Assembly: GCA_021199355.1 (NCBI GenBank)
Contig: JAJQIF010000009.1
Coordinates: 124,001-188,000 of the forward strand
Length of the DNA stretch: 64,000 nt
From: Oscillospiraceae bacterium
GTDB lineage: Bacteria > Bacillota > Clostridia > Oscillospirales > Ruminococcaceae
Reading direction: 5' to 3'
Shown here: positions 12,491 to 15,811 of the stretch, piece by piece
Layout of the letters: the number at the start of each line of letters is the position of its first letter
Position numbering within the stretch: the first letter of the stretch is position 1
Notes under the pieces: generated by a model
What the model was told of the DNA's origin: nothing
What the model saw: the letters and a program-made list of their open reading frames with translations, nothing else
Databases searched by the model: none
Translations under genes and position numbers: made by a program

Positions 12491-13144
12491 TTATGGCTGA
12501 GACAATTTTTCGGGGTCTAAGATTTCAACGCCGTTCCGGTCCTTTCGGATAACTCCCGCGTCCTCAAGCTTCGTGAGCTCACGATAAAGCGAAGCCCTCC
12601 CGATTCCGAGCCGACCTGCGATTTCGGAGAAGTTACAGCCGCTGACATATCCTCTGTCGTCGGCATTCTTCAGGAGAAACCTCGTAAGCCTTTTTTCACT
12701 GCTGATCTCTCCCAACGTGTCGACCTTCTCGGACAGGAATCGAATCCGGGCAGAAAGATACCGGATATAGTTCATCCTGATTCTCTCGTCACGGTTGATA
12801 AGCGCCAAGACTGATTCCTGACTGAAGTAGAACACCGTTGCGGCGGTTTTTGCCGTAAGGGTAGAGGCGTATTCAGGCTCGTTATTGAAGAGCGCCGCCG
12901 CTCCAAAGAGGCTTCCTCGCGATAGCTCGCTCACCGAAAGTCTGCCCTTTGTAACGGCAATCCTTCCCGAAAGCACCACTCCCAAGACCCTTTCGAACTT
13001 CTCCGGCGAGAAAATAACCTCGCCTTTCGGATAAACCTTCTCCCCGCAGGAAAACTCTCGGGTAATCCTAAGAATCTCCTCCTCAGAAATTCCCTCAAAA
13101 AGAAAAGTCGAGCTTAAGATATCCGCCATCTTCTTCCCAGTCAA
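12491..13144 (-). CDS. Crp/Fnr-family transcriptional regulator
   Basis: About 217 residues. The N-terminal cyclic-nucleotide-binding-like beta-roll (YPKGEVIFSPEKFERVLGVVLSGRIAV ... LSRGSLFGAAALF) is joined by a long dimerisation helix to a C-terminal winged helix (FSEIAGRLGIGRASLYRELTKLEDAGVI). No FNR-type cysteine quartet is visible, so a [4Fe-4S] oxygen sensor is unlikely. I choose the TTG at 13144, which has GGGGTGA just upstream, over the track's TTG at 13177, which lies in the operator. First gene of the operon with the SsuABC-type importer, which it probably regulates along with itself. Confidence 0.88.
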   Translation of the reverse strand: MTGKKMADILSSTFLFEGISEEEILRITREFSCGEKVYPKGEVIFSPEKFERVLGVVLSGRIAVTKGRLSVSELSRGSLFGAAALFNNEPEYASTLTAKTAATVFYFSQESVLALINRDERIRMNYIRYLSARIRFLSEKVDTLGEISSEKRLTRFLLKNADDRGYVSGCNFSEIAGRLGIGRASLYRELTKLEDAGVIRKDRNGVEILDPEKLSQP

Positions 13145-13158
13145 AAAATCACCCCGTT

Positions 13159-13216
13159 TTTGTCTCAAATGATACAAATACGAGGTGATTATATCACATA
13201 GCTTTCGCTATGTCAA
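13159..13216 (-). promoter_or_regulatory. Promoter of the Crp/Fnr-importer operon with two dyads
   Basis: On the minus strand: TTGACA (13211-13216), 17 bp, TATAAT (13188-13193). The spacer holds a perfect dyad ACATAGC-N4-GCTATGT (13196-13213). Immediately downstream, around +2 to +22, lies TTTGTnTCAnnTGAnACAAA (13159-13178), a near-perfect 20-bp dyad of the size and symmetry bound by Crp/Fnr dimers. Its downstream position predicts repression. Confidence 0.82.
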
Positions 13217-13219
13217 GAT

Positions 13220-15001
13220 TTATTTCCTATAGAACTCAGCCTGCTTATCAAACATCTCTGTATAGATGCCCTTTCTGGCATAGAGCTCATCGTGCGTGCC
13301 GTACTCCTCGACATGCCCGTTTTCAAACACAGCCACTTTATCGGCTAACTGAACCGCTGAAAGACGGTGGGTGATAAGAACAGCGCACTTGTCGGTGATG
13401 ATGTTGTGGAACTGGGTGTAAATCTCATATTCCGCATTCGGGTCGAGCGCGGCAGTAGGCTCATCAAGGATATAGATGTCTCTGTCGCTGTATACAGCCC
13501 TTGCAATCGAGATTCTCTGGAGCTCGCCGCCCGAGGGGTTAACTCCGTCCTCGTCAATCCACTTATCAATAGCTGAATCGTAGCCGTGCGGAAGCTTCTT
13601 GACAAAATCGGTAAGCCCGATTCTTTCGCAGACGTTATCAAGCTTCGCTTCATCAACATCTTTATCGAGCGCGATATTCTTCGAGAGCGGCAGATAGAAC
13701 TTCTCGAAGTCCTGGAACGCCGCCGAGAACATGTTCTGATACTCCCTGTAGTCATACTCGTTGATGTTCACGCCATCAAGGAGAATTTCGCCCTCAGTAG
13801 GGAAGTAGAGCCTTGAAAGAAGCTTGATGAAGGTTGACTTGCCCGAGCCGTTCTCTCCGACGATGCATAGTCTCTCGTCGCCGCGGATGGTGAGATTCAT
13901 GTTCTTAAGAGCATAGTTCTCGCTTCCCGGATACTTGAACGAGACGTTTCTGAACTCGATAGTTGAGTTCTTCCCGAAGCTCGGCTTACGGGTGCCGGAA
14001 GACTGCTGTTTCTGCGGAAGCTCGAAAAATTTCTTATACTCTTCGACCTCCATGCAGAGCCTCGACAGGCTCAGATAAGAATTAACGATGCTTCCGATGT
14101 TGCTTGAGAACTGATTTGCCGCACTGATATAGATGGACATTGTACCGATAGCCATCCTGCCCAGGAGCACCGAGATAATCGAGTACCCATAGATAACTCC
14201 GTCCTTGACGATGTTGACAATCGCTTGCAGGACTGTGGTCTTGCTCCAGTTGACAGTCTTCTCGTGCTCAAGAGCGTTGCCTGTTTTTCTGACATTCCTA
14301 AGATTGTCAAGTAACATATCGCTGATGTCAAAGAGTCTTATCTCTTTAGCATAGTTCGGGTTTTCAAGCTGATAGCTCGCGCCCCAGTAAACTCTCCAAT
14401 AATGATCCTGCTTCAAAGCTGTTTCGTGATTCTTTACGTTCAGTCTCTTTGTCAGAATCGAGTTGAGAAGCACAATAACGAGGATGAACACAAGCATCAA
14501 CGGATTTATGTAGGCGACTACCGACAGAATGACTATAAAGCTTATGACAGAAGAAAGAATCGAGTTCAAGCAGTCGACGACTCCAAAAACGTCATCCTGA
14601 GCTCTTGAGGCACGACTCCTTATGTCGAGAACCTTCGGCGATTCGAAGTATTCATAATCAATGTGACAGCTGTAGTCGTCAAATGCCACTTCTGCTTCGG
14701 TAAACAGCTCATGTCTGTGATTGTCGGCGATAGTCGTAATCAGTGCATTCGCGGAATTCTGCACAAACGGCGTTGCCACTAAGGTTGCCGCCAGAATGAC
14801 CACGGTTCTGATTTCTCCTGCCATCAGGTAGTTGATGATGAAGCCGGGGAGAAGGGTGTAGGACACGAGCGCCGCCGCATTTACGACCGACTTGAGAAGC
14901 GTCAGCATGATATATGGCAGGGCTCTGATGCCGCCGATGATATTAACAAGGGCGTAACGGGTGAGGTTGATAGTTTTTCTGAGTTCGTTAAAAAATTTCA
15001 T
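13220..15001 (-). CDS. ABC exporter half-transporter (peptide/lipid type)
   Basis: A 593-residue fused membrane-ATPase protein. About six transmembrane helices occupy residues 20-310, without a C39 peptidase domain. The ATPase has Walker A GENGSGKST, Q-loop AAFQDFEKF, signature NPSGGELQR, Walker B IYILDEPTAALD and H-loop LITHRLSAV. Homodimers of this type export peptides, often in bacteriocin or signalling-peptide loci of Clostridia. An AAAGGA site precedes the ATG. Upstream on the same strand is a 23-codon ORF with its own strong ribosome binding site, a candidate cargo peptide. Confidence 0.9.
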   Translation of the reverse strand: MKFFNELRKTINLTRYALVNIIGGIRALPYIMLTLLKSVVNAAALVSYTLLPGFIINYLMAGEIRTVVILAATLVATPFVQNSANALITTIADNHRHELFTEAEVAFDDYSCHIDYEYFESPKVLDIRSRASRAQDDVFGVVDCLNSILSSVISFIVILSVVAYINPLMLVFILVIVLLNSILTKRLNVKNHETALKQDHYWRVYWGASYQLENPNYAKEIRLFDISDMLLDNLRNVRKTGNALEHEKTVNWSKTTVLQAIVNIVKDGVIYGYSIISVLLGRMAIGTMSIYISAANQFSSNIGSIVNSYLSLSRLCMEVEEYKKFFELPQKQQSSGTRKPSFGKNSTIEFRNVSFKYPGSENYALKNMNLTIRGDERLCIVGENGSGKSTFIKLLSRLYFPTEGEILLDGVNINEYDYREYQNMFSAAFQDFEKFYLPLSKNIALDKDVDEAKLDNVCERIGLTDFVKKLPHGYDSAIDKWIDEDGVNPSGGELQRISIARAVYSDRDIYILDEPTAALDPNAEYEIYTQFHNIITDKCAVLITHRLSAVQLADKVAVFENGHVEEYGTHDELYARKGIYTEMFDKQAEFYRK

Positions 15002-15094
15002 TTCGAATTAGTCCTTTCATAAACAGATTCCCGAGTTGACAGCTTGCGTTCACTTGGCAAACCACCTGTAGACCTGTTTTTAAGGGGGCTAATC

Positions 15095-15139
15095 ACACAT
15101 CATTCGGGATAGCTAATGGTGAGAAGCACCCGGATGTGT
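15095..15139 (-). other. Hairpin over the end of the small peptide ORF
   Basis: ACACATC (minus strand) pairs with GATGTGT, with an inner CGGG/CCCG stem. It covers the last codons and stop of the small ORF. No U-tract follows, so it is more likely an mRNA stability or processing element separating peptide and exporter expression than a terminator. Confidence 0.5.
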
Positions 15140-15184
15140 TTTCGAAGAAGACGAACTTGTTCTGATTAATACTGCTTTTTTCAT
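15113..15184 (-). CDS. Candidate 23-residue exported or leader peptide
   Basis: A small ORF below the ORF-track size limit. AAAGGAG lies 8-9 bases before an ATG that opens 23 codons, beginning MKKAVLIRTSSSSSK and ending THPGASHH. It has a basic, hydrophobic N-terminus, five consecutive Ser codons and a His-His C-terminus. The ABC exporter begins 111 bp downstream on the same strand, with no promoter or terminator seen between. It could be a secreted or modified peptide carried by that exporter, or a regulatory leader peptide whose Ser/His codons control the overlapping hairpin. I do not recognise a family. Confidence 0.55.
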   Translation of the reverse strand: MKKAVLIRTSSSSSKTHPGASHH

Positions 15185-15210
15185 TAAAAAGACTCCTTTC
15201 GGTTTTCGCT

Positions 15211-15271
15211 CGGCTGAAAAATTTCAACCGTCACCTAAATAGTGTCAATTTTCGGGCAAAAAGTTTCACCG
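15211..15271 (-). promoter_or_regulatory. Two similar dyads upstream of the peptide ORF
   Basis: CGGCTGAAAAATTTCAACCG (15211-15230) is a near-perfect palindrome. CGGGCAAAAAGTTTCACCG (15253-15271) is a related site with its centre about 41-42 bp away, four helical turns. A TTGACA lies between them on the minus strand, but no convincing -10 could be fixed. The arrangement suggests cooperative binding by a regulator. Confidence 0.45.
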
Positions 15272-15318: not shown

Positions 15319-15354
15319 AATAAAAACCGCATAACTGTGTATACAGCTATGCGG
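15319..15354 (-). terminator. Intrinsic terminator after the HigA-like gene
   Basis: On the minus strand CCGCATAGCTGT...ACAGTTATGCGG followed by TTTTTATT. It isolates the antitoxin gene from the peptide/exporter unit. Confidence 0.85.
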
Positions 15355-15362
15355 CTCGTTTG

Positions 15363-15659
15363 TTATGCCCTGTCAACGGGTACAAACTTGATTTCCATTC
15401 TCATTCCAAGCCCTTCTGCAAGCCTTTGAAGTGTTTTCAAGGAAGGGTTGCCCTTGCCTTGCTCAAGCTTACTGATGTCGCTTTGATTTATGCCGGTTCT
15501 CTTTGAAAGCTCCTGCTGTGTGATGCCTGAAACGCTACGGGCTTTTATCAAAGCTCTCTTGATTTCAAACTCCGATTCAAGAGCGTCATACTCCGCTTTG
15601 ATTTCGGGGTCTTCAAGCTGTTCGGCTAAAAAGTCTTTGTAGTTTGTATATTCACTCAT
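15363..15659 (-). CDS. HigA-like XRE-family antitoxin, orphan
   Basis: A 98-residue protein: an N-terminal helical arm (MSEYTNYKDFLAEQLEDPEIKAEYDALESEFEIKRALIKAR) followed by an XRE helix-turn-helix (ITQQELSKRTGINQSDISKLEQGKGNPSLKTLQRLAEGLGM). This is the layout of HigA-type antitoxins whose partner is a RelE-like HigB toxin. The toxin gene immediately upstream survives only as a C-terminal remnant overlapping by ATGA, so the antitoxin is now orphaned. The consensus promoter upstream still drives it, so it may persist as an autoregulated DNA-binding protein. Confidence 0.85.
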   Translation of the reverse strand: MSEYTNYKDFLAEQLEDPEIKAEYDALESEFEIKRALIKARSVSGITQQELSKRTGINQSDISKLEQGKGNPSLKTLQRLAEGLGMRMEIKFVPVDRA

Positions 15660-15811
15660 TTTAGATTCTCCTCTCTGTCTAAAAAATCTGCACGGTATTT
15701 CTTGGCTCGTTCAATTACATTTGCCGGTGTTTTCTGCGTTTTCTTCACAAAGCCATTTGTCAGTACTGCTTTGTCTCCATTGCCATCCTCACTTATTTGT
15801 TTTATCCCATA
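15656..15811 (-). pseudogene. Truncated RelE/HigB-type toxin remnant
   Basis: On the minus strand about 51 codons read ...DGNGDKAVLTNGFVKKTQKTP...IERAKKYRADFLDR..., the C-terminal half of a phage Gp49/HigB-like RelE toxin, ending in a TGA that overlaps the antitoxin ATG. A stop codon lies just upstream in frame, no start codon is available, and the roughly 60 N-terminal residues are missing. The promoter lies where they would be, so an internal deletion is the simplest explanation. Confidence 0.7.

Follow-up and report, generated by a model that had tools for sequence, protein, structure and literature searches.

A conserved 23-codon leader ORF with a predicted hairpin switch upstream of an ABC exporter gene of gut Oscillospiraceae

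To our knowledge, very few ABC drug exporters have been found to possess a leader-ORF switch; the best case is bmrB of Bacillus subtilis. There, a leader ORF senses ribosome-targeting antibiotics for the ABC multidrug exporter bmrCD; BmrB comprises 53-54 codons and transcription is terminated inside the ORF (PMC4191407). The locus described here lies in a 64,000-nucleotide stretch of DNA, which was analysed as a whole (the window), and shares with bmrB a short leader ORF before an ABC exporter, hairpins over the 3' end of this ORF, an alternative pairing and the translation of the leader ORF as the proposed sensor (PMC4191407). It differs from BmrB in its length of 23 codons, in having no terminator and in burying the Shine-Dalgarno sequence (SD) of the exporter instead; furthermore, one half-transporter takes the place of the BmrCD pair and no sequence relation to BmrB was seen. 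With ErmBL and ErmCL it has in common a leader ORF, a hairpin (1:2) at the end of this ORF, a second hairpin that hides the SD and an alternative 2:3 pair (PMC9178857). In contrast to the erm attenuators, however, the main gene here is an exporter and not an rRNA methylase, and the switch is deduced from energies only. MsrDL and MefAL are likewise very short leader ORFs before a resistance gene and sense a stall, stop-codon stalling included, but they act transcriptionally via an intrinsic terminator and serve an ABC-F or MFS target rather than an ABC exporter (PMC10314930). The exporter-bearing leaders contain neither the macrolide arrest motif +x+ (PMC10314930) nor any other recognised arrest motif. 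Finally, a small ORF adjoining an ABC exporter is reminiscent of half-size peptide exporters with their small precursor peptides; unlike in those systems, there is no peptidase domain, processing motif or modification enzyme here, and the conservation is that of an RNA. A literature search for a leader-ORF exporter switch in this gut Oscillospiraceae group returned no description.

The original prediction, made from the letters of the window, described an AAAGGAG and an ATG that open a short ORF at 15113-15184 (minus strand), followed on the same strand by an ABC exporter. Coordinates and description hold, and the exporter (13220-15001) starts 111 nt past the stop of the ORF. The elements of the locus, ordered along the minus strand, are as follows.

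15324-15357, minus strand: intrinsic terminator of the upstream antitoxin transcript (15-pair stem, T-rich tail, z = -5.7)
15211-15230, minus strand: 5'-leader stem-loop CGGTTGA...TCAGCCG upstream of the leader SD, kept in relatives with changing sequence
15193-15199, minus strand: leader SD AAAGGAG, invariant in 11 genomes
15113-15184, minus strand: leader ORF, 23 codons and TAG, MKKAVLIRTSSSSSKTHPGASHH, with frame, start and stop intact in 11 genomes
15095-15139, minus strand: hairpin A, ACACATC-CGGG / CCCG-AAT-GATGTGT, with 98.6-100% of cells paired and an A-U to G-C double change in three species
15104-15108, minus strand: switch strand CCCGA, partner of CCGGG in the ORF or of TCGGG, invariant in 11 genomes
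15006-15094, minus strand: hairpin B, GATTAG..CC...GG.CTAATT, predicted in 11/11 sequences from past the stop to sequester the exporter SD, its upper stem variable and covarying
15030-15034, minus strand: TCGGG, the alternative and perfectly matching partner of CCCGA, engaged in GU-rich pairs within hairpin B, invariant in 11 genomes
15012-15018, minus strand: exporter SD GAAAGGA in the base of hairpin B, invariant and paired in the predicted folds
13220-15001, minus strand: half-size ABC exporter, ABCB/MsbA-like according to Pfam, NCBIfam and PDB relatives, 593 aa, no C39 domain

The terminator that had been placed between the antitoxin gene and the ORF (15319-15354) proved to be real, with its stem as listed above, and behind it the ORF shares a transcription unit of its own with the exporter, as originally proposed. 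From the two dyads noticed ahead of the ORF, the proximal one (15211-15230) is kept though its sequence shifts: 84% of the cells are paired among 8 distinct sequences, compared with 20-48% when slid, and two pairs have changed on both sides, the shuffle control not being decisive. The distal dyad (~15260), in contrast, is not conserved in relatives. Further upstream, the antitoxin is intact and follows a RelE/HigB-like toxin gene of which just the last 40 codons are left (15659-15778, minus strand); this remnant is 82% identical to the intact copy of genome G001, and a full toxin is found in G030, G006, G009 and G001.

As a check on the ORF, conservation of its frame next to the exporter and the balance of synonymous and non-synonymous change had been suggested, with stops or frameshifts in homologous loci counting against it. 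Frame, SD, ATG and TAG are intact in 11 species, and no disrupted frame occurs among the 11 sequences. Since the neighbouring genes crp and sbp have diverged at synonymous sites by ~0.35-1.7 per site in most pairs of these species, the intact frame exceeds what is expected by chance. The sole length difference among the 11 ORFs is 6 nt, i.e. two whole codons (MKKAVLIRTSSSSSKTHPGASHH versus MKTKTSVKINISSLNSSTHPGASHH). For codons 1-15, which lie outside hairpin A, a pN/pS of 0.48 was obtained in the exporter-bearing species, a value indicative of mild purifying selection; it would suit an ORF that is translated and only weakly constrained in its N-terminal half, as expected of a leader peptide. 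Within the peptide codons 6-15 are variable, residue 20 is Ala, Thr or Val, and a scan of the 23 residues against Pfam and NCBIfam gave no match. The 23-codon gene is real, and it looks like a conserved regulatory micro-ORF rather than an exported peptide.

The variable part contains a serine run (codons 10-14), in which every sequence retains three to five serines. This feature would suit an amino-acid-starvation attenuator with a stall at the serine run that is not drug-induced, but both the identity of the codons and the number of serines vary, a ribosome halted there would reach no further than the lower stem of hairpin A, and the downstream gene is neither an amino-acid biosynthesis gene nor an obvious serine transporter. 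We regard starvation control as very improbable.

Leader peptide and DNA motif occur with one copy each in 11/31 genomes of the genus, always at the same syntenic locus. Searches with a degenerate pattern and the covariance model R1 in 397 genomes of the family, with R1 in 394 genomes of the order, and in viral contigs, phage and plasmid records yielded, apart from the copy in the window itself, nothing but short matches due to chance; the family and order samples were drawn evenly and hence hold few members of the genus. In public records the same exporter appears at 88-98% identity in MAGs filed under the names Ruminococcus sp. or Oscillospiraceae bacterium, and leaders of the same type were looked for before 45-49%-identical exporters and found in none. 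Downstream of the exporter, a Crp/Fnr-family regulator gene (12491-13177, minus strand), whose promoter at 13188-13216 is a perfect 12/12 sigma-70 match, is present at the same locus in exactly the 11 leader-bearing genomes. Because the dS values of exporter and antitoxin among G000, G030 and G006 (0.07-0.21) are lower than that of sbp (0.55-0.71), the identity among these genomes and G024 may stem partly from exchange of an antitoxin-leader-exporter block. The leader of G006 (L002) is a mosaic, with an ORF identical to that of G000 and an apical stem of hairpin B identical to that of G025, which suggests recombination inside the element.

Hairpin A, which includes the stop, is made up of the last eight leader codons and the 23 nt after them, with the end of the ORF in its loop. 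The strongest conservation covers these eight codons, the stop and ~35 nt beyond, and it sets in again with TCGGGAA...GAAAGGACTAATTC immediately ahead of the exporter start. Neither TCTCACCATTAGCTA nor TAG...CCC varies, and TCT CAC CAT TAG CTA is unchanged even at synonymous positions. As the conservation thus includes synonymous sites and non-coding sites past the stop, the constraint acts at the RNA level. In the combined structure (A3, 10 distinct sequences) 94% of the cells are paired, compared with at most 40.5% when the partners are slid, and double-sided changes were counted for 6 pairs (17/500 shuffles) and 10 cells (0/500 shuffles). One of them, the A-U to G-C double change in three exporter-less species, joins a Thr codon of the ORF to its partner past the stop; coding and non-coding sequence therefore co-evolve, and the hairpin that had been drawn across the stop codon is real, with one covarying pair. 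The fold of the single sequence is only moderately better than those of its shuffles (z = -1.87, 10/200). The clamp of hairpin B forms in 11/11 sequences folded from just past the stop and in 9/11 folded as whole element, where G024 takes another fold and G025 forms only the inner SD pairs. Covariation is uninformative about the base of hairpin B and about the CCCGA:TCGGG pair, as both are invariant.

A riboswitch-like RNA that binds a ligand or a protein and occludes the exporter SD, with the overlapping ORF merely aiding the folding, would agree with the predicted SD occlusion and with the loop of hairpin A, TCTCACCATTAGCTA, which is invariant and has no predicted partner. The Rfam covariance-model scan, however, gave no family above threshold (only rliA, 19 bits versus a gathering score of 50), and the ORF keeps SD, start and frame and changes its length by two whole codons, all of which is needless for a riboswitch. 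We consider this explanation unlikely.

The original prediction had preferred a minimal peptide/exporter system, in which the product of the ORF would be a signal, a toxin or a modified peptide of small size that is secreted through the ABC protein next to it. One part of it stands, namely the conserved frame beside an exporter in a common transcription unit, but the secreted peptide itself found no support. The residues that are conserved are those that double as RNA structure, and the conservation extends past the stop to the exporter SD, whereas codons 6-15 and Ala-20 of the peptide vary. The 23 residues contain neither a double-glycine nor a Sec leader, nor any GG-type site with a plausible core behind it. 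A modification enzyme is not encoded next to the ORF, as already noted in the prediction. The exporter matches ABC_tran in Pfam (2e-27) and best MsbA in NCBIfam (7e-70, below that family's cut-off); no specific family cut-off is passed, and its relatives in the PDB are P-glycoprotein and MsbA. The ABC ATPase is present, but Pfam gives ABC_tran-type matches only and no C39 leader-peptidase domain, so that the assignment as 'peptide-type' is not established. In G009 the exporter is frameshifted, possibly by an assembly error. In favour of a secreted peptide, a 48%-identical exporter of another genome (L022) sits directly behind a Cys/Ser/Thr-rich ORF of 55 aa (L022:2710-2877, plus strand, MNFEKSTNGELYELMGSSCTGHCSNADISKGVYSSALTNGGSCATASTCNNASPA) which looks like a RiPP-like precursor. 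Altogether, a secreted peptide is quite improbable in our estimation, also in view of those genomes that have kept the ORF but lost the exporter.

These are G001, G019 and G027 (L009, L010 and L011), in which the leader is followed by the first exporter codons, a short remnant and a stop just before a relic of the exporter C-terminus (AEFY); other exporter copies in these genomes are only paralogs of at most 36% identity. Co-occurrence of peptide and exporter fails here, and the survival of the leader after exporter loss counts against a dedicated peptide-exporter pair. Between the three species the dS of crp is 0.39-0.66 and the leader core is nearly unchanged; the changes in the leader peptide are mostly amino-acid changes. 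In these genomes the leader may have lost its exporter only recently or may serve some other function, and neither the attenuator nor the exported-peptide model fully explains its retention. That it forms a functional module of its own, which would act as a free-standing RNA or peptide regulator or would control the remnant micro-gene, seems unlikely to us. The remnant ORF after the leader (25-26 codons, MIYF/S..GL...EQEP(L/I)LDGLMG; MIYFYGLTSPAIATYEQEPLLDGLMG in G001) is open in all three species, and G001 and G019 differ in its last 12 codons mainly at synonymous positions.

A leader-peptide attenuator, which had been named as the main alternative, fits the locus better. Because no terminator-like site was found on the minus strand between leader and exporter (15112 to 15001) and the SD is occluded, attenuation would be translational rather than transcriptional, and a transcriptional attenuator of the BmrB or MsrDL type was rejected. 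We thus regard the ORF as the likely regulatory leader (uORF) of a ribosome-mediated translational attenuator for the ABC exporter, in which the hairpin switch would hide the exporter SD, probably as a means to switch on the exporter when a ribosome stalls. In the exporter-bearing species, forcing of CCCGA:TCGGG costs 6.5-14.0 kcal/mol with hairpin A free and 0-4.3 kcal/mol when the ribosome edge lies on the stop or slightly beyond it, the ribosome footprint being assumed at +15 nt. In the three exporter-less species the cost is still 4.3-8.9 kcal/mol when hairpin A is masked. On the basis of these costs the modelled switch is erm-like in design in the exporter-bearing species and appears weaker where the exporter was lost. 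In nearest-neighbour folding the open state is equal to or above the closed state, the latter being more stable in most sequences, and with hairpin A blocked the open state is 2.2-4.3 kcal/mol worse in G002, G025, G029 and G009. A simulated ribosome block, scanned with the full 5' leader, gave no uniform, clean opening of the exporter SD, and the switch is consequently argued from the CCCGA:TCGGG energies only.

With normal or absent leader translation, hairpins A and B would form and the exporter would stay silent. A ribosome stalled near HPGA, with the P-site at about Gly-19/Ala-20 and its leading edge at about the stop, would mask the 5' arm of hairpin A; CCCGA could then pair with TCGGG, whereby the GATTAG:CTAATT clamp would be lost and the exporter SD would open. 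By analogy with BmrB/BmrCD, the most plausible class of trigger would be a compound that inhibits translation and serves as a substrate of the exporter. Readthrough of the TAG to the next in-frame TAG (LSRMMCD or LPRMMRD) and reinitiation at ATGATG, each of which would melt the base of hairpin B, were also considered; the amino acids of the readthrough segment change, and nothing spoke in favour of either.

Taken at the level of sequence, a conserved leader ORF with a bipartite RNA switch before an ABC exporter is a known kind of regulation in a new lineage. A locus that looks like a peptide gene beside its exporter may turn out to be an RNA switch, a point to bear in mind when genomes are mined for secreted peptides. 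Should the switch be confirmed, whatever induces the leader would tell what the exporter removes and thereby provide a direct experimental handle on the exporter.
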